A DNA stretch of 23,114 bases from a virus. The position numbers were made by a program, and so were the translations under genes. The stretch is taken from the IMG/VR virus record IMGVR_UViG_3300042542_000112, positions 1 to 23,114 of that record. One strand, written 5' to 3'. Positions 1,229 to 21,419 of the stretch are shown here, one piece after another. The notes beneath the pieces were generated by a model. That model was not told where the DNA came from. It was given only the letters and a program-made list of their open reading frames with translations, and did not search any database. How positions within the stretch are numbered: position 1 is the first letter of the stretch; every line of letters starts with the position of its first letter.

Positions 1229-2875
1229 TTATTTCCCCGTGGTTGAGCCAAGACCACCAAACAGGCCGCCCAAGCCTAATCCAGCGCCGACAATCTGACC
1301 GAACATACTACCCGGTGCTTGATACATCGTCTGCGTCTGACCCGTCGCCGGGAGACCACGCAGGATACCCGACATGAACTCCAACTGCTGATACGGCAGA
1401 CGCTGCTGATTGAGAAAGTCCTGATACTGCGTATTGAGCAGTTCCTGACCAAAGGCTTGCTGCTGACCACCAGCACCCAACTGAGCCGCGTTAATACCCA
1501 TTTGTTGCTGGTATTCCTGCTGACCCAAATTACCCAACATACCGGCAGCGGCCAACTGCTGTTGAAGTCCCTGCATACCCAATCCAGCACCGAACTGACG
1601 GGACTGTTCCGCAAGGTTCGCACCAGCCAGACCGTACTGAGCACGCTGCATGGCATTCTGTTGACTGAACTGATTGGCTGCTGCCAACTGAGCCAGAGCC
1701 TGTTGCTGAGCCTGAAGCTGTGCTTGTTGATTTAACTGTTGAGCCTGCAAGCCCTGACCCGCACCAAACTGTTGTTGGTTGATCATTGCCTGAAGGTTAG
1801 TCTGACCCGTCTGCTGCTGAGCCGCTTGATTGGCAAGCTGAGCCTGAAGGTTCTGACCGGCACCAAGTCCTTGAGTCTGGAGCAACGCAGCCAAGTTTTG
1901 TTGGCCCGTCGTGAGACCTGCTTGCTGATTAGCCAACGCAGCCTGAAGCCCCGCTTGAGTTCCCAACTGCTGAACGCCCAACAACGCAGCGAGGTTCTGT
2001 TGCCCCGTGGTCAAACCAGCGGCTTGGTTAGCCTGTTGCGCCTGAAGCATACGAGCACGGTCGGCGTTGTACTGAGCCTGTGCCTGCTGGAACGCGCTTT
2101 GACTACCCTGCGCCTGAATGTCGCCCAACTGAGTGGCAAGGTTACGACGGGCTTCAGATTCCAGAATGGCTTCACGGGTACCACCCGAAGCACCAGCACG
2201 AACACCGGCTGCTTTTAGCCCCGGCAACTGACGAGCGTAATCACGAACAGCCGCTTGTTTCTGACGGTCAACAACTTCCTGCATGTACGGTGACATGTAC
2301 TGAGAAGCCGCGCCAAGTCCAAATTGATCCGCATATACACGCTCAGCCGGACCCATCTGATACTGCTGCAACGCGCCGATGCCGACCCGCTCCGGACCAG
2401 CCATTTGAAAACGTTCAAGTTGCGGTGCCTGTACGTCCCTCGGCCCCTGCATCTGATACGAGGTACCCGGCGCAGCTTGAACGCGCTCAAAAGTAGTCCC
2501 CATTCGTTCAAATTGAGGAGCTTCGTAAAACTGACGTTCGGCTGCTGGGGTATATTGAGCAAGTCTGGCAGCATCGACACCAGCCAAACCAGCAAGGCCC
2601 GTGGCTTGTCTAAGTTGGTCCGCAGTCTGCATTCCAGCAATGTTTTGAAATGCTTGCTTTTGAAGCGGACTAAAGTCTTCTAAACGCTGGAGGGCTTCCA
2701 TAACCGGACGGCCTTGCGCGTCCAGCACAGGATTACCTTTAGCATCTAGCTTCGGCCTAGCATAGGGCTGATAACCCTGTTGAGACAGAACGTCTGCCTG
2801 ACCGATCAATTTTAGGATCGGATCTTTGAGCCAACTAGGAATGTTGGTTTGAATTTGTTCAGTAGGAGTAGCCAT
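1229..2875 (-). CDS. Q/A-rich putative internal virion (DNA-ejection) protein with 33-residue repeats
   Basis: This 548-residue protein starts at ATG 2875 with GGGAG 7 nt upstream, 12 nt after the preceding stop. The N-terminal ~75 residues are ordinary (PSWLKDPILKLIGQADVLS). Residues ~120-185 carry spaced copies of an ER(V/F/M)/QM-type segment. Residues ~200-250 hold the charged stretch QEVVDRQKQAAVRDYARQ. Residues ~255-450 are extremely rich in Q, A, L and G. Three perfect-length 33-residue tandem units lie at residues 282-380 (ANQxAGLTTGQQNLAALL type). The C-terminus is a Gly-rich hydrophobic tail (GQIVGAGLGLGGLFGGLG) that could insert in a membrane. Long helical Q/A repeats plus a membrane-active tail fit an ejected channel-forming protein such as those of T7 or P22, but no homology to those is visible to me. 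Confidence 0.85.
   Translation of the reverse strand: MATPTEQIQTNIPSWLKDPILKLIGQADVLSQQGYQPYARPKLDAKGNPVLDAQGRPVMEALQRLEDFSPLQKQAFQNIAGMQTADQLRQATGLAGLAGVDAARLAQYTPAAERQFYEAPQFERMGTTFERVQAAPGTSYQMQGPRDVQAPQLERFQMAGPERVGIGALQQYQMGPAERVYADQFGLGAASQYMSPYMQEVVDRQKQAAVRDYARQLPGLKAAGVRAGASGGTREAILESEARRNLATQLGDIQAQGSQSAFQQAQAQYNADRARMLQAQQANQAAGLTTGQQNLAALLGVQQLGTQAGLQAALANQQAGLTTGQQNLAALLQTQGLGAGQNLQAQLANQAAQQQTGQTNLQAMINQQQFGAGQGLQAQQLNQQAQLQAQQQALAQLAAANQFSQQNAMQRAQYGLAGANLAEQSRQFGAGLGMQGLQQQLAAAGMLGNLGQQEYQQQMGINAAQLGAGGQQQAFGQELLNTQYQDFLNQQRLPYQQLEFMSGILRGLPATGQTQTMYQAPGSMFGQIVGAGLGLGGLFGGLGSTTGK
1736..2032 (-). repeat. Three 99-bp tandem coding repeats
   Basis: Residues 282-314, 315-347 and 348-380 of the 548-residue protein align without gaps as 33-residue units. 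The first two share AGLTTGQQNLAALL exactly; the third is degenerate (QQQTGQTNLQAMI). A shorter, decayed continuation follows. The 33-residue period, about nine helical turns, fits a long regular helical or coiled-coil rod. Confidence 0.85.
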
Positions 2876-2887
2876 TATCGCTCCCGA

Positions 2888-5554
2888 TTAAGCAGGCAGA
2901 TATTTGTCGGACTTCACGGCGGGGGCTTGCTTGGTTTTGCCCGTACGTGCTTTCCGAATCTGCGCCATCATTTGATACAGTTTTTTGGCCCCTGCCTTGG
3001 TGGAGCCATTACCGAGATGCGATACCACATCAGCCGGGATGACGAACTCGCCATCAGCCAACGCAGCACGTTGTACACCCTTACCACGAATCACAGCCGG
3101 GATATCGTCGGACATCCCATCACCGGGGCCGTCTAGCAGTTTGCCGCCAGCCTTGTATTCAGGAAGGCTACCAAGACCACCAGCAGCAAAGCCAAAGTTG
3201 TAATCCTCGCCCACGGCAGCACCGTACGGGTTAGGCGCAGTCATACCACCGGCTTGCATGGCGCGGATATGCCCACCTTTACGTGCAGGCAGTACGTCTT
3301 CTTCAATCGTGATGACGCCTTTACGTCCGCCACCACCGCCACCGAATCCGCCACCGCCACCGGCTCCGCCGCCTACTCCAGCACCGCCACGGCCTTCGCC
3401 GCCACGGTTTTCTCTGCGAGAGGTTCGCCCTTCGTTTTCCTTGTCCTTTGCATTTTTCTCTTGCTTGGCCTTTTCTTCCTCAAGTTGAGCGCGAACAGCC
3501 TCTTCAATTTCAAGTTGCTGCGCTTCAGTCAAACCTTCAGGTGTCGCAAAGAACTTTTTAATGTTTGGAGTTAGTTTGTCCCACGCCCAAGTACCGAGCA
3601 TACCGGCACCGGTAAGACCAATAGCTGTACCGACAAGCCCGTACGGATCACGGAAGCGTCTATCAAACCAATCCATGAACTTGCCTTTAGCCTTATCAAG
3701 AAGGTTGTCATCGTCTTCCTTCTCGGCGTCTTCAACGTCGTCCTGATTCTCATCAGCATCGCCTTCATCTTTGCCCGTGCCCGGAGGACCGTCACTCTTT
3801 TTGGGTCCTGTTCCAGTACCTGTGCCTGTGCCTGTGCCCGTACCCGTGCCAGTGCCGCCCGTACCCGTACCGCCAGTAATACCACCGCCACCACCGCCAG
3901 AGCCGCCCGTGCCCGTACCGGCACCGCCACGACCACCACCGGGTTCATTCTTGTCGCCCTTGTCGCCTTTATCTTCACCACCGCCAGTACCGCCCCCAGT
4001 GCCGCCGCCTGTAACAGGAAAACCCCCCGGCGGGAACACCATGAACTGCGGATTTCTGGCTCGACGGCTAAGTTCGTCCAAGTAATCCATCGTCGGTTTG
4101 GTATCAACCGGCGCTTTTGGTGGTGCGTTAACCATGTCCATATACCGCTGCCGCTGCTGGGCAAACGGGTTCGGAGGACCATCCGGAGGGAGTACAACCG
4201 GAGGTGGTACAGAAGGTTCTGGACCGGGCGGTGGGCTAGTTACCGGTACGCCGGGTTGAGCAAACGGATTAGACGAGGGCGGTGCAACGCCTACCGGCGG
4301 ATAGTCTTCTTCGTCCTCTACCGGACCACCGTCAGCAAACCGCTCTTCACCCGTAAACGGGTCAACCTTCGTGTCGTAACCAGACAACACCTCGCGGGGC
4401 TGCGGTACGTTCGATAGATACTGGGGCGAGTAGTTGGCCTTGACTACCGTGGAAAGCGGGTAGTTCTGGTTCGGATGCGGATACGGCATCGGCAGGTTCA
4501 TGTCCTGACCAGATGATTGCACCTGACCACCCATCGCATATCCCGGTGCCATTGCATACGGGTTGTACGGCACAAGACCTTTTTTGGTTCTCTTGTAGTA
4601 CGTTCCCGGCAAGAAATAACCGTGTTCTCTACCGTACCCGTACATTGGGTTGAATTTGCCCGGTATGTACAGGGTGTCGTCACCTGCATCCCCAGAAGGT
4701 ATTTCGTACTCTGGCGTGAAGGCGTCAGAAACGCCCATTAAAGTCGCGTACCGCGCTGCGTTCTTTCCAAATCCAGATTCAAACCCACCGCCAAGGCGGT
4801 CGATGAATGTGCTACGAGCCTGCGGAGTTGTTACAAGATTTTTTGCGCCTTGAAACAACCCACTAAGCCCAGCAGGGGCAGCGGGAGCGGCCTGAGCAGC
4901 AAGTTGTGCCATTGGAAGCGCGGCTGTTGACGCCACAGAAGACGGGGTATTAAACCCAATCGTAGGACGGCCAAGGCCTAGTTTACTCGGGTCGGCAGTT
5001 GCCAAATCGATGGTTGGATTAACCACAGGCGTGGCACCTACCGTCTGCTTGGCGGCTTCAATAGCCTCGCTAGTTTTGGCAATTTCTTCAGCAGAAGCAC
5101 TTGGAGCAGCCTCCGCCAAGGACGCGCCTTGCAGGGCTTGGGCAATGTTGGCACCACTGTACGCCCCGATACCGGCCATCAGACCTTTTTTCAGGTCGCC
5201 CTCAATCAGGCCGGTAACACCGCCAACCAACAAGCCAGTACCCACCGTGCTAGCGGCTGCACCCGACAACCCAAGGAACCCACCAATCGAAGACCCCAAA
5301 CCCGGTGCTACCGTATTGAGCACGGCTCCAGCCAGCATGGGCAGGAGTTTTTTGAGGAATGAAGCTTCGTATAAACCTGTTTCTGGGTTAATCGTCAGGC
5401 TGCCACCATGCGCCATCGCAAGGGCCTGAAGTCCTTTGACCTCTTGGGGAGCCATATGCACAAGCACAGAATCCCCATTCCGACCACGTGAGGCCAGAAG
5501 GGAGGCAAGCCCAGCCTCGGGGGGATTAGTGTATCTTGGGTCGTTGTTGTACAT
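2888..5554 (-). CDS. Large low-complexity putative internal virion / ejection protein
   Basis: This protein has 888 residues from ATG 5554; an in-frame GTG at 5560 would add two. I prefer the ATG because GGGG lies 5 nt upstream. Residues ~60-135 are Gly/Ala hydrophobic (MLAGAVLNTVAPGLGSSIG, VGTGLLVGGVTGLIEG). The middle is rich in P, G and acidic residues, with a run of GT dipeptides and poly-Gly. Then come WFDRRFRDPYGLVGTAIGLT, with a hydrophobic segment, and a highly charged Glu/Lys helix (AVRAQLEEEKAKQEKNAKDK). The C-terminal ~83 residues carry DGPGDGMSDDIPAV and LADGEFVIPADVVSHLGNGS. This resembles the GPG-x-SDxIPA...GEfVI motif I know from phage tail and tape-measure-like proteins, and it ends in KYLPA. 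Its function is not established. It is the first of three large proteins that I read as the ejection set. Confidence 0.82.
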   Translation of the reverse strand: MYNNDPRYTNPPEAGLASLLASRGRNGDSVLVHMAPQEVKGLQALAMAHGGSLTINPETGLYEASFLKKLLPMLAGAVLNTVAPGLGSSIGGFLGLSGAAASTVGTGLLVGGVTGLIEGDLKKGLMAGIGAYSGANIAQALQGASLAEAAPSASAEEIAKTSEAIEAAKQTVGATPVVNPTIDLATADPSKLGLGRPTIGFNTPSSVASTAALPMAQLAAQAAPAAPAGLSGLFQGAKNLVTTPQARSTFIDRLGGGFESGFGKNAARYATLMGVSDAFTPEYEIPSGDAGDDTLYIPGKFNPMYGYGREHGYFLPGTYYKRTKKGLVPYNPYAMAPGYAMGGQVQSSGQDMNLPMPYPHPNQNYPLSTVVKANYSPQYLSNVPQPREVLSGYDTKVDPFTGEERFADGGPVEDEEDYPPVGVAPPSSNPFAQPGVPVTSPPPGPEPSVPPPVVLPPDGPPNPFAQQRQRYMDMVNAPPKAPVDTKPTMDYLDELSRRARNPQFMVFPPGGFPVTGGGTGGGTGGGEDKGDKGDKNEPGGGRGGAGTGTGGSGGGGGGITGGTGTGGTGTGTGTGTGTGTGTGPKKSDGPPGTGKDEGDADENQDDVEDAEKEDDDNLLDKAKGKFMDWFDRRFRDPYGLVGTAIGLTGAGMLGTWAWDKLTPNIKKFFATPEGLTEAQQLEIEEAVRAQLEEEKAKQEKNAKDKENEGRTSRRENRGGEGRGGAGVGGGAGGGGGFGGGGGGRKGVITIEEDVLPARKGGHIRAMQAGGMTAPNPYGAAVGEDYNFGFAAGGLGSLPEYKAGGKLLDGPGDGMSDDIPAVIRGKGVQRAALADGEFVIPADVVSHLGNGSTKAGAKKLYQMMAQIRKARTGKTKQAPAVKSDKYLPA
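3807..3874 (-). repeat. 6-bp microsatellite encoding (Gly-Thr)n
   Basis: Imperfect tandem hexamers (CCTGTG / CCCGTA on the plus strand) encode an alternating Gly-Thr run of about nine dipeptides inside the 888-residue protein, flanked by poly-Gly and GTGG segments. Such a tract is prone to slippage in units of two residues, which would change linker length without breaking the frame. Confidence 0.8.
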
Positions 5555-5593: not shown

Positions 5594-6196
5594 TCACACC
5601 GACACATTGGACACCCACGTGACGGTTATGATAACGGACGGGATCTCGGGGACATTACCCGAAGCAGGCTCTTCTGCCAGAAACACGTTGGTATCTGACG
5701 ACTGCCAAGCAAGTTCAAAGTAGTCGTTCTCGGCCAGAGGCAGCACAAAATTCCATGCGGCCACGATCTCAGAGTTTGGTCCGTCGATAGTAACTTTAGT
5801 TGCGCTGTTTGCAACGTTCTGACCATTAAGCCTGAGCCAGATATATACGGCAGACGCACTACCACCAGACTTGTCTAGCTGAGCAGAGAATTGAATGTTG
5901 TAGATAGCTTCTTCAGCTACGTACACACGAGAGTTGATAGCGCCGATACTGACGTTAAAAAAATCAACCGTCTGGTTATACGTCATCAAATTAACAGCAT
6001 TGGCAACAGGATTAGTCTGATCGACGTTGCTGTAAAAAGATCCGTATGGTCGTGGTGCGTTGACGGCGTTACTGACTTGGTTCAAATACAGACGCATGAC
6101 GTTGCTGTACTGATCCTGATACCGCTGCTCATAGCTCACCGGAGCTACCGGCAAGCTTGGGTTTACGATGTTTCGTCTTTTGCTAGTTATAGACAC
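5594..6196 (-). CDS. Putative virion protein, jelly-roll-like C-terminus
   Basis: This 200-residue protein starts with GTG at 6196, overlapping the previous TAG by one base (TAGTG); no better ATG exists near the start. Residues ~20-75 contain YEQRYQDQYSNVMRLYLNQV and PYGSFYSNVDQTNPVANAVN. The rest is beta-rich, with patterned hydrophobic strands (VYVAEEAIYNIQFSAQLDKS, VYIWLRLNGQNVANS, YFELAWQSSDTNVFLA). The second half has the look of a C1q/TNF-like trimeric jelly roll, as in many phage tail and capsid surface proteins. I recall similar proteins in marine phage contigs next to the preceding gene type. Its function beyond virion structure is unknown. Confidence 0.8.
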   Translation of the reverse strand: MSITSKRRNIVNPSLPVAPVSYEQRYQDQYSNVMRLYLNQVSNAVNAPRPYGSFYSNVDQTNPVANAVNLMTYNQTVDFFNVSIGAINSRVYVAEEAIYNIQFSAQLDKSGGSASAVYIWLRLNGQNVANSATKVTIDGPNSEIVAAWNFVLPLAENDYFELAWQSSDTNVFLAEEPASGNVPEIPSVIITVTWVSNVSV

Positions 6197-8493
6197 TAGC
6201 GACGACCGTCCGGCTTCACATCAATACGCATGGCACCCATCTGCCACGCCACGCCCTTGTCTACCGAGTCCAACCGGAACGCCATCTGACGACCACGCAC
6301 TCGCGTGTAGACCTGACCCGTAAACTGTTGGATCGGGATAGTAGAAGTGCGAACAACAGTCGGACTATCAGCAGCCGTGTAGTTGCTGCCCGAGTTCTGT
6401 CGGGGCTTGACCGTCAAAGTCACAGTCGGGCTACTGGCGTTAGACCCTGCAAAGGTAAGGTCGGGCAACATACGCCAGACGTAACCAAAGTTCTCACCAT
6501 CCGAGATATCAAAGTCGGACGACTCGATGTATGCCTCAATCGGCAGTGAAGGGCTTTGAGATACGTCGTCGTTACCAAACTCATGCAGCATCACTTGGTT
6601 AGGTACTTTAAACCCGACCGCGCTGTATTGAATATGGCTTGCAGCAGTAGTGCCATTAACCCCGCGAACACAACCAGTGAGAGTATTACCAGTTTTACCG
6701 GTATAGGTAATCTGTTCCGAGTCAATCGTGATCGTGCCTTCATTGGGATATGACGACGCATCCACTAGCGATATGGTGGTGATAGACGAGTTGATAGCCG
6801 TATCCAGATACGAACTCTGAAGGCTAAACACGCCAAGCGGGTACGTACGCAGACCCGGCGAGTCAAGCCAAGCGGTGCGATCAATCGTGCCGTAATACCA
6901 AATACGTTCCAGATGGTTGTAGATGACGTATCGGTTATTCACGAGGCTATCGGCAGACGGGTAGAACCACCAGATCTCGTTATAACCTTCGTTCGTACCG
7001 CACACGATCTGACCGTACTGGCTCGTGTTGATGTCGGTATAAACATACTGACGCAGAGTGCAGGGCAGCGTCTCGACGCGACCGGAGTACATGTAGAACT
7101 TGTCCACACCCATCCAGTACGTGACGTTGTTGACTGTGATTGCCGCGTTCGGGGAAATGATGGAGATATTGTCCATCATCAAGTTGATGCCCCACACGTA
7201 CGGAGGTCCGAGGTACTGCATCGAGAAGAGCGCAGCATCCGTCCAGATCAAGATTTCCTGCCGGGTATCGACCGCGCACTGAATAAACGAACCGTGCGAG
7301 AGAAGTTGTTCACCTGACTGGTTAGTGGCGCTTGGCACCCAGTCGTAGGCATTGTCGGCGTCTGACCAGCGCACCAACATCGGGTCAAAGTCCGACGTAA
7401 ACGTAGCGGGACTGTACGGGTTTGAACCAAAACAGATCGTGAAGTTACTGACGCTTGAGGTCAAAACTTGGTTTGTCTGCTCAGGGATATGCCGACCAGC
7501 GTAGCTAATCGTGATGGTCGAGATCGTAAACGAACCAGTCGTGGTAGCCGACAACGGCACCGAGAACCCGCCGTCATAAGCAGTCGTGACGTATGTGCCA
7601 GCAGCGATACCATTACCCGTAATGACTGCGCCAGATTCAATTCCAGTCGGGTCCGCTACCGTAATTGTCGTGACCGAAGCCGACACTAGAGCCGTCGTGG
7701 TAGCACGGATAGTCTCGTTAGCAATGTCCGAGAGCAATCTGGCACGGTCATAGTTCGCCAGATCCAACGCCCAGTAATAGATCGGACCACGGCGGTAGTT
7801 AAAGATTAGGTCATCGTTGAAGTTATCTTGCGACCACAAACGCAAGTCCGTGCCTGCGGCCACGGCAGAACCCCAACCTCCCTGTCCCCAAGGCGGCTTA
7901 CCCCAGCCAACACCACCCGAGTATGTAGACAGACCTGCTGGTACCTGTAACTGCGAGACAACCAGCGAACCACCGCCAGACCCAGTAGCCGTGGCTACGT
8001 TCGGGGCAACGATCTGATAGGAGTTAGAAGTGGGTACAGCAACAATCTCAAACTCACCGTCAAAGTTGATGCCGTTAATAACGCCGCTGTTGGCTACGCC
8101 AGAAAACGTCACGTATGAGCCAATCGTCGAACCATGCCCAGACTGCGTGACCGTAACAAGCAAACTACCATCCGTAGTCGTGAACGGATTGGCAGCAATC
8201 ACACCCGAAGAGAAGATCGGGGTTACGTCGTAATACGTACCGCCATTCTCGATGTAGTACTTGGAGTTTGTGCCGAAGCCCAGCAGGTTGCTACCGCCGA
8301 ACGTGACCCAGTTCCATAGAGTGTGGCAGATACCAAGAAAGGTATTGCTGGACTGGTTGACCCAGCCGCCCAGCTTTTCAGCGTAGCCCGAACGGAACCG
8401 CACCTTGTCACAAGCAAAGTAACCACCTTCGTTGGCGTAGCTCGTAGACTCTTTGTTGATGCCCGGACGGAATTCAAGTTTTGTAAGGGGCAT
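6196..8493 (-). CDS. Large tail structural protein, possible tail-nozzle (tubular protein B-like)
   Basis: This 765-residue protein starts at ATG 8493, overlapping the endolysin stop by one base (TAATG). The N-terminus holds LEFRPGINKESTSYANEGG then KVRFRSGYAEKLGGW, a signature I recognise from large structural proteins of aquatic podovirus-like phages. The body is beta-rich with aromatic repeats (WNWVTFGGSNLLGFGTNSKY, IWWFYPSADSLVNNRYVIYN). At least three inserted modules can be seen: residues ~110-175 (VTFSGVANSGVINGINFDG), ~265-330 (TTALVSASVTTITVADPTG) and ~570-625 (EQITYTGKTGNTLTGCVRG). A repetitive beta architecture after adaptor genes would suit the nozzle (T7 gp12-like, beta-propeller), but I see no direct sequence match. 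The structural role is likely; the specific assignment is tentative. Confidence 0.82.
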   Translation of the reverse strand: MPLTKLEFRPGINKESTSYANEGGYFACDKVRFRSGYAEKLGGWVNQSSNTFLGICHTLWNWVTFGGSNLLGFGTNSKYYIENGGTYYDVTPIFSSGVIAANPFTTTDGSLLVTVTQSGHGSTIGSYVTFSGVANSGVINGINFDGEFEIVAVPTSNSYQIVAPNVATATGSGGGSLVVSQLQVPAGLSTYSGGVGWGKPPWGQGGWGSAVAAGTDLRLWSQDNFNDDLIFNYRRGPIYYWALDLANYDRARLLSDIANETIRATTTALVSASVTTITVADPTGIESGAVITGNGIAAGTYVTTAYDGGFSVPLSATTTGSFTISTITISYAGRHIPEQTNQVLTSSVSNFTICFGSNPYSPATFTSDFDPMLVRWSDADNAYDWVPSATNQSGEQLLSHGSFIQCAVDTRQEILIWTDAALFSMQYLGPPYVWGINLMMDNISIISPNAAITVNNVTYWMGVDKFYMYSGRVETLPCTLRQYVYTDINTSQYGQIVCGTNEGYNEIWWFYPSADSLVNNRYVIYNHLERIWYYGTIDRTAWLDSPGLRTYPLGVFSLQSSYLDTAINSSITTISLVDASSYPNEGTITIDSEQITYTGKTGNTLTGCVRGVNGTTAASHIQYSAVGFKVPNQVMLHEFGNDDVSQSPSLPIEAYIESSDFDISDGENFGYVWRMLPDLTFAGSNASSPTVTLTVKPRQNSGSNYTAADSPTVVRTSTIPIQQFTGQVYTRVRGRQMAFRLDSVDKGVAWQMGAMRIDVKPDGRR

Positions 8494-8981
8494 TACGCTA
8501 CTCCCGAGAGGAACAACGCACGTTCGTCGTTGCGCCGTTTGACTAATCCCGGCAGAACTCTACCACCTGCCTTCGTCCATTTCAGAAACTCGTCAGCGGC
8601 TTCTTCCAGTTCACCACGGTTGGTCTTCATCCGAAGGGAAGAGCGTTGGAGATTGCCGAGGCCCACGTTGAAGGCAAAAGATACGAGAGCATCAAAGACT
8701 CCCTGACGGCCAACAGCAGCAGGGCAAAGTCGAACCACACCACGCTCAAACCGGCCAAGGTCTTGAGCAAGTATTCGGTCCACCTCGTCCATCGTGAGAA
8801 TGCGATCCCACCCTGCGGGTATCGGTAGATCTTTGCGTTCATTAAATGGGATAGCGGTGTGTTTTGGGTCAATCACATGGCCGACACCGACAGTCCACAA
8901 GAGGGCAGGGCAGCGGTAAGGCTTCGTCCGTACCCCCTCGTGATGTTTGATCATGTCAATGGCAGCCTTGGAGACTTTCAC
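8493..8981 (-). CDS. Endolysin, GH24 (T4-type) lysozyme
   Basis: The endolysin is a muramidase that cuts the MurNAc-GlcNAc backbone of peptidoglycan at the end of infection. It has 162 residues from GTG 8981, which overlaps the holin stop by four bases (GTGA); the frame remains open upstream to a TTG at 9011, an unlikely start. The triad matches the lambdoid GH24 pattern E-8aa-(D/C)-5aa-T exactly: E15 in HHEG, C24 in PYRCPALL, T30 in WTVGVGH. Other family marks are ALVSFAFNVGLGNLQRSSL and the C-terminal GLVKRRNDERALFLSG. The length is normal for the family. There is no N-terminal signal-arrest-release membrane segment, so release should depend on the adjacent holin. Cys replaces Asp at the second catalytic position. 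Confidence 0.93.
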   Translation of the reverse strand: MKVSKAAIDMIKHHEGVRTKPYRCPALLWTVGVGHVIDPKHTAIPFNERKDLPIPAGWDRILTMDEVDRILAQDLGRFERGVVRLCPAAVGRQGVFDALVSFAFNVGLGNLQRSSLRMKTNRGELEEAADEFLKWTKAGGRVLPGLVKRRNDERALFLSGVA

Positions 8982-9463
8982 TTCTTGCCAAAAGCCTGCG
9001 TACCAAACCAAAAGGCGATGATCGAAGACAGAATCAACATCTCGTCATCCGAGAATACTTCGGCCATCGCAGCAGCAAACGGCACACCCGTGTTGTAGGC
9101 GTACCAAACACCGGCAATGTTAATGGCAACAAGTTCCAGCACGAAGATGTACGTCACGACTGGACGCACCGATGCGCGGAGATTGATCATCCACTGACTC
9201 GCACCTTTGCCAATCTCCATGTCGTGCTGGTACAGGGCTTGGCGTTCTTCACCTGCCGTCTGAGTTTGGATCTGTTCCAACTTGATCTCTTCGACCCGTG
9301 CCTGAGCAATGAAGCCGCGTTCAGCCAAAGCCAACTCGCGCTCCTTCTGAGCAGCAACCAAGGCCAACTCATGCTTTTTGTCCTGCCGGTCTTGGAAGAT
9401 CTGAAGGATCTTGGGTAGTCCACCCGCGAGGAATGACAGGAACGTACTGACCATCGTCATCAT
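8978..9463 (-). CDS. Holin-like membrane protein (coiled coil plus two or three TM segments)
   Basis: This 161-residue protein starts at ATG 9463 with AGGAG upstream, 3 nt after the previous TAA. An N-terminal amphipathic or weakly hydrophobic segment (residues 4-22, VSTFLSFLAGGLPKILQIF) is followed by a charged coiled-coil region (~25-85, ELALVAAQKERELALAERG). Two clear membrane helices follow: ~100-122 (RPVVTYIFVLELVAINIAGV) and ~142-158 (LILSSIIAFWFGTQAF). This arrangement, with RPVVTY before the first helix and a FWFG near the end, resembles the 3TM holins of gene-transfer-agent and phage clusters. The endolysin overlaps its stop, which supports a lysis role. It would permeabilise the inner membrane to release the endolysin. 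Confidence 0.8.
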   Translation of the reverse strand: MMTMVSTFLSFLAGGLPKILQIFQDRQDKKHELALVAAQKERELALAERGFIAQARVEEIKLEQIQTQTAGEERQALYQHDMEIGKGASQWMINLRASVRPVVTYIFVLELVAINIAGVWYAYNTGVPFAAAMAEVFSDDEMLILSSIIAFWFGTQAFGKK

Positions 9464-11233: not shown

Positions 11234-12091
11234 TCACGCCGCAATTACTGTCCAGTTAGGCGTTTGTGAATCATTAACCGGGGTCCACGGACCAGTCGGT
11301 ACCGGAACAATCTTACCCCAAACAAGGACTTGACCCACAGCCCCCGTTGCGCTAACGCCGGTTGGGAAGACCACAGCACCGCCCGTGACAGATACCGTCC
11401 CGACTGCGCCCGACGCAGATACCCCCGTGACCGGGGCGGTAGCCGATGCTGCTGCCGTAGCCGTACCAAGTTGGCCTGTACCTTCAACGCCCGTGACGGC
11501 AAGAACTTGATCGGTAATAACAGTGACATTTCTTACGCTTGCAAAGCCTATAACTGGGAACAGTTCAACCCCAGCACTAGCTACAACCGTGACATCACCA
11601 ACTTGGCCTGTGGTCTCGACACCTGTGACAGGGACATCGACGACAATCGCAACTGCAACCGTACCAACTTCGCCGGTAGCCTCGACGCCTGTGACAACCA
11701 AAACCTGATCGGTGACAACGAAGACCGTACCCAGTTGTCCGTTGGCTTCAACCCCAGACGGAAATGCGACCGCTTCTGCTACAACCGTAACATTGCCAAG
11801 TTCGCCAGTAGCTTCGACCCCCGTGACATTGACCGGCGCATCCGCAGCAACAGCAACATCGCCAACGAAGCCGGTAGCTTCGACTCCTGTGACTTCAGCC
11901 GCAGTGGTGATGAAGATCTCAACGTTGCCAAGCTGCGCTGTGCTTTGCACCCCATTTGGGAATATGTCTGCTTGGGCTATAACAAGGACATCACCAAGCT
12001 GACCGGTGGCACTTACCCCAGTTACGGATACAAAAGCGTTACCGTCCGTAGCAGCAAACGGCGCGGCAGCAAATGGGGTAAAGCCAAGCAT
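11234..12091 (-). CDS. Repeat-built beta-type virion protein (11 x ~22 aa)
   Basis: This 285-residue protein starts at ATG 12091, 3 nt after the sulfotransferase stop. After a short N-terminus (MLGFTPFAAAPFAATDGNAF), eleven units of 21-23 residues begin at residues 23, 44, 67, 89, 110, 133, 155, 178, 199, 221 and 242. Their consensus is (V/F)(T/P)GVEATGxxGxVxV. Every second or third unit starts FP instead of VT, and unit 8 is decayed (FPVIGFASVRNVTV). The C-terminus (TGPWTPVNDSQTPNWTVIAA) is a Trp-rich cap I have seen ending other phage structural proteins. Regular short beta repeats suggest a stacked beta rod or solenoid, probably a fibre or spike component. No enzymatic motif is visible. 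Confidence 0.85.
   Translation of the reverse strand: MLGFTPFAAAPFAATDGNAFVSVTGVSATGQLGDVLVIAQADIFPNGVQSTAQLGNVEIFITTAAEVTGVEATGFVGDVAVAADAPVNVTGVEATGELGNVTVVAEAVAFPSGVEANGQLGTVFVVTDQVLVVTGVEATGEVGTVAVAIVVDVPVTGVETTGQVGDVTVVASAGVELFPVIGFASVRNVTVITDQVLAVTGVEGTGQLGTATAAASATAPVTGVSASGAVGTVSVTGGAVVFPTGVSATGAVGQVLVWGKIVPVPTGPWTPVNDSQTPNWTVIAA
11318..12025 (-). repeat. Eleven degenerate ~66-bp coding repeats
   Basis: These are tandem units encoding the VTGVEATG-type 21-23-residue repeat of the 285-residue protein. At the DNA level they share short blocks read on the plus strand as 'cctgtgac' and 'ccagtagcttcgac'-like sequence. The repeats leave a long antisense frame open on the plus strand. Confidence 0.8.
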
Positions 12092-12094
12092 TCG

Positions 12095-12637
12095 CTAGTA
12101 TTCCTTACCTAGTGCGTTCTTCGCAAACGCGTAGTCGGCGGCGTAGTAATCACGAACAAACTGCTTGATGTCGTCTGTTACCTCTACCACCATACTTGAA
12201 ACGTTCAATTTAGGCACGGGTATGTCTGAACGCCCGTACCGTTCACCAAGTGCTTTTACCTCTTCATTAAATCTTTCAAAGTTCAAAACCGTCATGTTTG
12301 GATAGTCAAGCCAATCAATTTGTTTTGCTAGAAGAACGCCGACATTTAAATCTAAAAATTCATTTGGAGTAATTGTTTTACCAAGTCTTTTAAGCATTTT
12401 TATTATGCTTACATATCTATCCAATGGATTTCTAAAAAATCCATACATTTTGTAATTTGCAAGATTTGAATGTATAGCAATTAAATTTTTTGGAAACGGG
12501 TGTCCTATGTTACTCACACTAAAATCTTTGTCCGGCACAAACTTGAAATCTAGCTTCCGCAAATACAAAACAAGACTGGTTGTGCCAGTCTTGGGGGGCA
12601 ACACAAAAGCTACTTTTGTAGGCTTGTGAAACAACAT
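12095..12637 (-). CDS. Sulfotransferase-like protein (PAPS-dependent family)
   Basis: The product has 180 residues; ATG 12637 overlaps the preceding TAA by one base. The 5'-phosphosulfate-binding loop is clear at residues 15-22 (PKTGTTSL, after the strand VAFVLP). The 3'-phosphate site is clear at 69-80 (RNPLDRYVSIIK). His46 and His56 between them are possible catalytic or structural residues. The C-terminal helix (FVRDYYAADYAFAKN) matches the usual end of the family-2 sulfotransferase fold. At 180 residues it is shorter than typical cellular members but has both cofactor sites. Its base composition is strikingly AT-rich: 31 of 120 bases in 12361-12480 are G or C, against 59 of 120 in 11461-11580. 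This suggests recent acquisition. It lies inside the fibre cassette, so a fibre, capsid sugar or host surface polymer is the plausible acceptor; the substrate is unknown. Confidence 0.87.
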   Translation of the reverse strand: MLFHKPTKVAFVLPPKTGTTSLVLYLRKLDFKFVPDKDFSVSNIGHPFPKNLIAIHSNLANYKMYGFFRNPLDRYVSIIKMLKRLGKTITPNEFLDLNVGVLLAKQIDWLDYPNMTVLNFERFNEEVKALGERYGRSDIPVPKLNVSSMVVEVTDDIKQFVRDYYAADYAFAKNALGKEY

Positions 12638-13179
12638 TACGGTAGGTCCATTATCTCATCCGCAGACGGTGCCGGTATCCAGCGCAGATTCTCCTCATCC
12701 CATTTGTAGTGTTTTGGTCCGAACGGAACGCCGTCATCTGGATACGGCACGGGCGCAACCCATCTGGAGGGAAGCGGATAAAGTTGCAATATCCATGATG
12801 GATATGGGGGCTTGGGTACTTCAATCCATGAAACTGTTGGTTCGTTCCAAGTATATGCCCCGTCAGTTGGCATCGGGATAGGTGGCTCCCATTCAACCGT
12901 CTGTGTGTTCAATACCCACGAAGGGTTGCTAACGGGTTTTGGCGGAACGAATGCGTCAAGCTCTACACTATATGTGTAGCCAATACCTGCAAAATGTTTT
13001 CTAAAACTACTGTTGTAGCTAGTCTGTTTCCAAACTGTATCTTGCCCATACAGCGACTGGCAAAAAACTACACCAATAGGTTCTGATTCTGGGAATGGTA
13101 AATTATCAATAGCTCCATTAGCGACTACGATGACATCGACCACTAAATTCTGAGCATCAATTTTTGCAAAGTGCGCCAT
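12637..13179 (-). CDS. Trp/Pro-repeat virion-associated protein (180 aa)
   Basis: I start it at ATG 13179 (MAHFAKIDAQNLVVDVIVVA), 2 nt after the stop of the Gly-rich protein; the in-frame GTG at 13194 lies within that gene and is less likely. Residues 1-80 form a domain with QTSYNSSFRKHFAGIGYTY, a well-known pattern in cyanophage- and pelagiphage-type structural proteins. Two diverged copies of a W/P unit follow, residues ~87-119 (PSWVLNTQTVEWEPPIPMP) and ~127-170 (PSWILQLYPLPSRWVAPVPY). Each ends in an acidic, Trp-containing YxWxE segment. It overlaps the sulfotransferase start, so the two are probably co-translated. Its function is unknown. Confidence 0.83.
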   Translation of the reverse strand: MAHFAKIDAQNLVVDVIVVANGAIDNLPFPESEPIGVVFCQSLYGQDTVWKQTSYNSSFRKHFAGIGYTYSVELDAFVPPKPVSNPSWVLNTQTVEWEPPIPMPTDGAYTWNEPTVSWIEVPKPPYPSWILQLYPLPSRWVAPVPYPDDGVPFGPKHYKWDEENLRWIPAPSADEIMDLP

Positions 13180-13181
13180 GG

Positions 13182-14192
13182 CTACGAATTCCACACGACT
13201 GAGCCGGAGCCGTTAAACACGTAAATCTTGTACCCGCCACTTGTTGTAACAGAGGGGGAGCCAGTTGTTGTGCCGGTAGAGTAAGTATCTGAATGGCGGA
13301 ATATCACAACTCCTGAACCGCCGGTACCAGCAGTAGTGTTGTAACCGGGGCCAGCGCCACCGCCGCCGCCAGTATTTGCAGTTCCATTTAGAGTACCGAA
13401 GTAATTACCACCGCCGCCGGTACCGCCTCCCGCATCCGCTCCATATGCACCAGCACCGCCACCGCCACGAGTGACAGAAGAACCTGTAATGGACGATGCG
13501 GTACCATCACCGCCGCCACTCAAGCCATCTGTTCCACCGGCCTCTCCAGCGCCGCCACCGCCGCCACCGCCGCCACTACCATAGTTTGCAAATTGACCGG
13601 CGTTACCTTGTCCAGAAGTTCCGCCACCAGCAGCACTAGCACTTTGTGAATATACGTTGTATTGGAATATATATTGTGAGTTGGAGTTTCCTCCGCCAGA
13701 CCCACCTGTTGCGCCGTTCGTAATAACCGAAAGTGGTTGTGCCGATCCACCACCGCCACCGCCAGTAGAAGTAACACTGAACGCAGATGAATTGCTACCG
13801 TTTCCGGCTGTTTGGCTACCAACAGAAGCCCCAGCGCCACCGCCGCCGACAGTAATTGTGTACGTGGTGCTTTGACTGATTGACGCGCTTCCGGTTCTAT
13901 ATCCGCCAGCACCCGCACCGCCAGCATTACCGCCACCGTATTCAGATGGCCCGTAATACACGCCGTAGCTCCAGCCGCCACCACCACCACCGGCAATAAT
14001 CAAGTATTCAACTTGTGGAGGCCCGTTGTACGCGGATTTGCCCCACAGGTCACTCATTGAAATTTGACCAGAGGCTTTACCTGCGAGCGTACGCACGTTC
14101 GCTTGGTTCAACGAGATTTGAGTAGTAGCGGCTAAGCTAAGCTCAACGTTTACTTGCGAAAGCGATATTGATCCTGATGCCGGAAGTGGCAT
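13182..14192 (-). CDS. Glycine-rich tail fibre / adhesin
   Basis: This 336-residue protein starts at ATG 14192, 3 nt after the large fibre's stop. Residues 1-55 (SISLSQVNVELSLAATTQIS, SGQISMSDLWGKSA) are a short N-terminal module common in phage fibres, probably for virion attachment. After VEYLIIAGGGGGG, residues ~68-300 are a long Gly-rich domain with loops such as AGAGGYRTGS, GGGGAGASVG and SVTRGGGGAGAY. The C-terminus (GGSGVVIFRHS, then GYKIYVFNGSGSVVWNS) closes the domain. Polyglycine-helix sandwiches of this type form receptor-binding tips, for example in some T-even-like adhesins. The exact fold here is inferred. The site is probably hypervariable among relatives. Confidence 0.88.
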   Translation of the reverse strand: MPLPASGSISLSQVNVELSLAATTQISLNQANVRTLAGKASGQISMSDLWGKSAYNGPPQVEYLIIAGGGGGGWSYGVYYGPSEYGGGNAGGAGAGGYRTGSASISQSTTYTITVGGGGAGASVGSQTAGNGSNSSAFSVTSTGGGGGGSAQPLSVITNGATGGSGGGNSNSQYIFQYNVYSQSASAAGGGTSGQGNAGQFANYGSGGGGGGGGAGEAGGTDGLSGGGDGTASSITGSSVTRGGGGAGAYGADAGGGTGGGGNYFGTLNGTANTGGGGGAGPGYNTTAGTGGSGVVIFRHSDTYSTGTTTGSPSVTTSGGYKIYVFNGSGSVVWNS

Positions 14193-14195
14193 GGC

Positions 14196-17348
<3,153 letters not shown>

Positions 17349-20997: not shown

Positions 20998-21216
20998 TTA
21001 CACCATCTTGCAGCGGGTCTTGCCCTTCTTGGCAATGCCATCAGCACGACGAGAAACAGAAGAGGCCATACCACCCTTCTTCATTCCCTTCGGCTTTGCA
21101 CCCTTCGGCGCATCTTGCATATCAAGGCTCATACCCGGAGCAGCCATCGAACGGCTGTGGATACCACGAGGGCTAGTCGGGCCGTAGGACCCGCGAGTTT
21201 TTGGACCGCTGCTCAT
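20998..21216 (-). CDS. Small basic protein with shared ADGIAKKGKT tail (72 aa)
   Basis: I start at ATG 21216 because GGAGG lies 9 nt upstream and the ATG overlaps the previous TAA (TAATG); a TTG two codons earlier is open too. The N-terminal half is Ser/Pro/Gly-rich (MSSGPKTRGSYGPTSPRGIH). The C-terminal 30 residues read MKKGGMASSVSRRADGIAKK then GKTRCKMV. This tail is nearly the same as that of the gene just upstream (MKKGGMAGSYRKAADGIAKK), so the two are partial paralogues. I know the 'ADGIA(K/Q)(K/R)GKT(R/K)GK' ending from many phage miniproteins. Function unknown. Confidence 0.82.
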   Translation of the reverse strand: MSSGPKTRGSYGPTSPRGIHSRSMAAPGMSLDMQDAPKGAKPKGMKKGGMASSVSRRADGIAKKGKTRCKMV

Positions 21217-21419
21217 TAGCAATAACCTCCGCTACGCATTTTGACTTCCTTACCCTTGGTCTTGCCCTTCTTGGCAATGCCATCAGCGGCCTTGCGGTAC
21301 GAACCAGCCATGCCGCCTTTCTTCATGCCGTACTCAGCCTTCTCATGCTTGATCATGGACTTCGGAGCGCCCTTCTTCTTCATGAAGGCAAGCTCTTTCT
21401 TAGCCATTGCGTTTTTCAC
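21216..21419 (-). CDS. Small Lys-rich protein with shared ADGIAKKGKT tail (67 aa)
   Basis: The start is GTG 21419, overlapping the previous TGA as GTGA, with GAGG 11 nt upstream. An ATG at 21407 is the alternative but is too far from that site. The protein begins VKNAMAKKELAFMKKKGAPK. It ends with the tail MKKGGMAGSYRKAADGIAKK followed by GKTKGKEVKMRSGGYC. About a third of its residues are Lys or Arg. It is the upstream member of a pair sharing this C-terminal module. Function unknown; charge and size would permit DNA or capsid binding, but nothing proves it. Confidence 0.8.
   Translation of the reverse strand: MKNAMAKKELAFMKKKGAPKSMIKHEKAEYGMKKGGMAGSYRKAADGIAKKGKTKGKEVKMRSGGYC

Follow-up and report, generated by a model that had tools for sequence, protein, structure and literature searches.

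The window analysed here, which comprises all 23,114 bases of an IMG/VR virus record, very probably encodes a PAPS-dependent sulfotransferase, and in nearly every relative whose upstream side can be read, the gene lies within a glycine-rich adhesin operon. The relatives are encoded in about 50 IMG/VR contigs, all metagenomic. The features of the locus are collected in Table 1; the open reading frame, its length, its two motifs and its one-base overlap with the preceding gene were all reproduced as originally predicted.

Table 1. Features at and around the sulfotransferase gene (positions in the window)
Feature	Position	Strand	Evidence or remark
TGV-repeat protein, downstream of the sulfotransferase	11234..12091	-	Not a fixed neighbour; in the window, L003, L029, L045, L051 and L056
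Putative sulfotransferase gene	12095..12637	-	ATG start, 180 aa; profile, model and fold matches
Putative 3'-phosphate-binding motif, residues 69-80, RNPLDRYVSIIK	12398..12433	-	R69, P71 and S77 in 34/34
His46, candidate catalytic base	12500..12502	-	Invariant, 34/34; role proposed from its position
Putative 5'-phosphosulfate-binding loop, residues 15-22, PKTGTTSL	12572..12595	-	Conservation and model
CCGTAATG, junction; sulfotransferase ATG overlapping the terminal Pro and stop codons of the gene before it	12635..12642	-	
phrog_7759 protein, 180-185 aa, putative chaperone-like partner of the adhesin	12637..13194	-	E 1.7e-45; ATG start at 13179
Glycine-rich adhesin, 336 aa	13182..14192	-	Gly_rich_2 PF21722, E 2.3e-9
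Tail fibre with Peptidase_S74 intramolecular chaperone	14196..17348	-	PF13884, E 6.1e-11; PHROG tail fibre families

Fold, cofactor-binding residues and selection

The original prediction of a sulfotransferase was confirmed by fold search after structure prediction. The AlphaFold2 model of the window protein, built from 13 sequences, has a pLDDT of 90 and a pTM of 0.85, and its top Foldseek matches in the PDB are sulfotransferases (3rnl, E 1.1e-3; 3-OST; NDST1). All 50 matches listed by VIA-align 2 are also sulfotransferases, with residues 5-180 of the window protein aligned to NDST1 (Z 10.3, rmsd 3.6, 175 aligned), 3rnl (Z 10.0, rmsd 3.7, 169 aligned) and the heparan sulfate 2-O-sulfotransferase 4ndz (Z 9.4, rmsd 4.0, 166 aligned); tyrosylprotein sulfotransferase is absent among these 50. 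In BFVD, most of the best matches are phage proteins that already carry a sulfotransferase annotation.

The profile search, proposed as a check, was positive in part. The window protein scores 14.7 bits against Pfam PF03567 (Sulfotransfer_2), below the gathering cut-off of 22, while another family member matches at E 1.9e-8. Residues 7-83 of the window protein match PHROG 3347 (E 4.5e-4), which is also matched by 16 of 23 family members at E <=0.01 (best 2.9e-10) and by all seven of the relatives found first. PF06990 (Galactose-3-O-sulfotransferase) matches only one of the 23, weakly (E 0.063), and the window protein is not among its matches. Neither phmmer nor a profile search of PDB sequences returned a sulfotransferase, because the protein is too divergent by sequence, and tblastn with four family members found nothing in 50,697 annotated phage records. 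The sole NCBIfam match, VapC, is at chance level and was rejected as an identity.

Sulfotransferases are recognized by cofactor-binding and catalytic signatures, namely a 5'-phosphosulfate-binding loop, a His about 22 residues before the 3'-phosphate-binding Arg, and an R-x7-S motif. That both PAPS-binding signatures are present, as had been claimed from the window alone, is borne out by 34 distinct proteins from the contigs examined, including the window member (28 clusters at 80% identity), in all of which the key contact residues are kept at fixed spacing. In the loop, position 16 is Lys in 28 and Arg in 6 of the 34, Gly18 is found in 32/34 and Thr or Ser occupies position 19 in 34/34, with Thr20 and Ser21 varying; in the model, this region forms a strand (9-12), a loop and a helix (19-28). 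The distance from His46 to Arg69 is 23 residues in 32/34, and the Arg-x7-Ser spacing of the second motif is 8 in every protein. Low dN/dS within the family (0.06-0.19, eight computable pairs) and the invariance of these residues indicate purifying selection that has preserved the predicted active site.

The composition of the gene had been read as a sign of acquisition from another source. On recount, the local G+C figures match exactly (31/120 at 12361-12480, 59/120 at 11461-11580), and the gene, at 37.8% G+C in a window of 53.4%, occupies the lowest-G+C 543-base stretch, making it the most AT-rich stretch of gene length. The figures stand, but the interpretation does not. Relatives with 28-64% identity, which almost all occupy this operon position, are also AT-rich (0.37-0.49 against 0.52-0.56 for the locus), and a single patterned scan across the genomes of 84,980 bacterial and archaeal species returned no relative. 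Because divergent relatives in the same position share an AT-rich gene, we regard it as a long-standing resident; recent horizontal acquisition of a host gene into this genome is largely refuted and very improbable.

Adhesin operon and stop-start junction

The gene was originally described as lying beside fibre and adhesin genes, within a tail-fibre cassette. A Peptidase_S74 fibre and a Gly_rich_2 protein are indeed nearby, and the survey of relatives agrees; what the description understated is that the gene usually follows directly after a phrog_7759 gene. In all 25 loci of the commonest type (type A), a glycine-rich gene comes first, then the phrog_7759 gene and then the sulfotransferase. 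In L098 and L104, a 2OG-Fe(II) oxygenase (called by profile in L098 and by resemblance in L104) stands between the glycine-rich and phrog_7759 genes, and in L010 and L062 the glycine-rich gene is followed by the sulfotransferase, a small gene, the 2OG oxygenase and phrog_7759. Oxygenase and sulfotransferase are thereby found together in glycine-rich operons at L010:1734-5076, L062:116-2717, L098:1151-4597 and L104:1105-4588. L061 and L113 have a different gene of 148-171 aa between the glycine-rich gene and the sulfotransferase. The adhesin arrangement was not seen in the available sequence of L064, the most distant member. A few loci (e.g., L114, L109) were read only as far back as the chaperone-like gene, and contigs beginning at the sulfotransferase gene were left out.

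The upstream side of the sulfotransferase is fixed and the downstream gene is not, as it may encode a TGV-repeat protein, a phrog_6637 protein, a DUF7936-like protein or others. The TGV-repeat protein of the window is built of repeats of about 20 residues (VTGVxATGQxGxV); since its relatives vary in length (e.g., 231, 285 and 363 aa), the repeat copy number seems to change between them. In L056 there are two glycine-rich/phrog_7759 pairs (1926-3900 and 5893-7163), only one of which is followed by a sulfotransferase, providing a natural internal comparison.

Base 12637 is shared between the start of the sulfotransferase reading frame and its upstream gene. The usual junction in the relatives is of the Pro-stop/start form CC[G/A]TAATG. 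A last codon for Pro (CCG or CCA) was found in all 25 distinct one-base overlaps before a sulfotransferase, compared with 8 of 50 other such overlaps in the same contigs (Fisher p about 3e-13, with lineages that are not independent). The C-terminus of the phrog_7759 protein varies freely except for this last Pro, and phrog_7759 genes with no sulfotransferase after them mostly have other ends. The one-base overlap is missing in L010, L051, L062 and L113, and the start codon in L104 is GTG. The sequence CCGTAATG is not unique to the sulfotransferase gene: L062 has it at two further junctions, and two more copies lie on the opposite strand of the window; at L062:4395-4402 it joins two structural genes with no sulfotransferase. 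The two genes may be translated by stop-start coupling, perhaps aided by slow termination at Pro.

The model of the phrog_7759 protein (pLDDT 92) suggests a function for this partner. Its residues 1-83 resemble chain a of 7YPX at a modest Z of 5.7 (rmsd 1.9, 58 aligned, 22% identity); this chain has 162 residues, the same length as gp25, which is described as a chaperone embracing the glycine-rich tip of the Pam3 fibre (PMC9608196). Resemblance of the N-domain to chain B of 5YVQ, the Mu tail fibre-chaperone complex, is weak (Z 3.2, rmsd 2.9, 54 aligned). The helical C-terminal trimerisation domain of the gp25 type was not found in the model, which has beta-strands and no long helix there. Because the Z values are modest and this helical domain is absent, the model supports calling the protein chaperone-like and not a member of the Tfa/gp25 group. 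A glycine-rich gene is also paired with phrog_7759 in 20 of 27 cases with no sulfotransferase, and such widespread pairing fits a chaperone-like role.

Elsewhere in the window, a stabilisation-protein homologue at 6196-8493, with its best match in DSL-LC04, suggests that the phage is podovirus-like. A 161-aa phrog_6637 protein (8978-9463, minus strand) adjoins the endolysin and is possibly a holin; its identity is 92-100% in most of the relatives that share only 30-50% identity in the sulfotransferase, which is unusually high conservation for the neighbourhood. Two neighbouring small basic reading frames on the minus strand (20998-21222 and 21216-21419) share the motif ADGIAKKGKT and are perhaps a duplicated small virion protein. 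No RNA families or tRNAs were found in the window.

Candidate acceptors of the sulfate group

From the computed fold, cofactor motifs, selection, operon position and junction, we infer an activity, a timing, a coupling, an acceptor and a benefit. A cytosolic PAPS-dependent sulfotransferase would act as part of an operon of glycine-rich adhesin, chaperone-like protein and enzyme in a podovirus-like tailed phage. It would be made late, translated through stop-start coupling from the chaperone-like gene, and use host-made PAPS as sulfate donor. Before assembly, the most likely acceptors would be hydroxyl groups in the adhesin module, carried by Tyr, Ser or Thr or by a hydroxylated residue, and the added negative charge would alter or diversify binding to the host surface. 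As a whole, we propose this tentatively, as a serious possibility that still falls short of being probable. PAPS is cytosolic, and no signal peptide is evident by eye in the sulfotransferase. Neither APS kinase nor PAPS reductase was found in ten related contigs, which are possibly incomplete, so the PAPS would come from the host. The Tyr content of glycine-rich adhesins linked to type-A sulfotransferases is 5.0% compared with 2.9% in others, a difference confounded by lineage, and raised Tyr is absent in the adhesins of L010, L062, L098 and L104; this gives a weak hint that Tyr might be the acceptor residue. Some points speak against an adhesin acceptor. The nearest structural matches mostly act on glycans or small molecules, which does not favour a protein as acceptor; genes that lie side by side need not have a substrate in common; and the distant relative L064 lacks the operon in its available sequence.

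The main rival places the sulfate on a glycan of the host envelope, such as O-antigen or capsule, or on the precursor of that glycan in the cytosol, so that a changed receptor keeps released phages from being lost on infected cells and debris, or blocks competitors. The nearest solved folds are heparan-sulfate sulfotransferases and the PHROG is named Galactose-3-O-sulfotransferase; the gene also moves together with the receptor-binding module and so could be suited to the receptor. However, the position in the structural cluster and the chaperone-like coupling suggest late expression, which is late for receptor masking, and polysaccharides are not the typical substrate of the 2OG-Fe(II) oxygenases in the shared slot. 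We consider host-glycan sulfation rather unlikely, although it deserves attention.

The operon position also bears on whether the gene is cargo in a fibre-region hot spot, unrelated to adhesion, whose product would have a small molecule, a lipid or a nucleotide as substrate. PHROG places the family in the moron/AMG category, many phage sulfotransferases are listed among auxiliary metabolic genes (PMC8290583), and nucleotide or protein modification has been suggested (PMC10829341). Cargo would not be expected to keep a single upstream partner and a single junction alongside a variable downstream gene, which makes this quite unlikely. Alternatively, the fold could have lost catalysis and have a structural or assembly role in the adhesin complex, as the protein is small (180 aa compared with roughly 250 in solved relatives), Lys16 is replaced by Arg in 6/34, and positions 20 and 21 vary. 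H46, R69 and S77 are all invariant in 34/34 at fixed spacing. A pure scaffold has no need for the full set, and we find such a loss of catalysis improbable.

In several of these modules, a 2OG-Fe(II) oxygenase accompanies the sulfotransferase or takes its place. An oxygenase of this kind, from PHROG 81, adjoins phrog_7759 in other phages (DSL-LC04, ctNMl277, L017, L020 and L022), and many phrog_7759 genes adjoin neither of the two enzymes. Because two enzyme types flank the same adhesin/chaperone pair, we suggest a slot for modification enzymes around it. One can imagine a maturation cassette in which the chaperone-like protein hands the adhesin to an exchangeable oxygenase for hydroxylation and/or to a sulfotransferase for sulfation; we think this doubtful, but if true it would represent chemical post-translational modification of a phage receptor-binding protein.

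Relation to known systems

The gene had been put forward as the best candidate for a new phage function. This did not hold, as phage sulfotransferases are already catalogued (PHROG 3347; BFVD entries; PMC10580990) and known from metagenomes and cyanophages, with unclear function (PMC10580990; PMC8290583; PMC12285232). The function class is known, and what seems new is its tie to an adhesin/chaperone-like operon, of which we found no description in the open-access literature. The likeness to PHROG 3347 is a profile match, weak and short for the window member, and the putative galactose-3-O specificity of that family comes from annotation only. The sulfotransferases of Prochlorococcus phage P-SSM7 (E3SP23) and Synechococcus phage ACG-2014f have the same fold, a similar size and a phage origin, but are only 16-17% identical. 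With the Sulfotransfer_2 enzymes (PF03567; heparan sulfate 2-O-sulfotransferase) the protein shares the 5'-phosphosulfate-binding loop, a His 22-23 residues before the Arg, and R-x7-S; unlike them, it has no membrane anchor and is much smaller. The Pam3 gp24/gp25 pair is comparable in having, after a glycine-rich receptor-binding protein, a chaperone whose N-terminal domain resembles that of the phrog_7759 protein at a modest Z. It differs in its C-terminal helical trimerisation domain, which phrog_7759 lacks, and the consulted parts of the Pam3 report describe no sulfotransferase (PMC9608196).

A distant relative in a cultured phage is gp5.1 of Roseobacter phage SIO1 (NC_002519, 188 aa), which aligns over 167 columns in hhalign (P 5.9e-7), is also matched by fold in BFVD, and has the PKT loop, the His and the RNP...S motif in common with the window protein; its gene is near a tail fibre gene. 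In contrast to the family described here, gp5.1 is annotated without function and has no Pfam or PHROG match, no phrog_7759 operon was seen, and the two proteins are 19% identical.

In aquatic phages, both sulfotransferases and 2OG-Fe(II) oxygenases turn up repeatedly, and they are usually classed as auxiliary metabolism. The fixed place of the sulfotransferase in adhesin operons, coupled to a chaperone-like gene, leads to the testable idea that phages modify their own attachment proteins, and the SIO1 relative may permit a test in a cultured phage. Collectively, our results suggest that some phages may sulfate their own attachment proteins.
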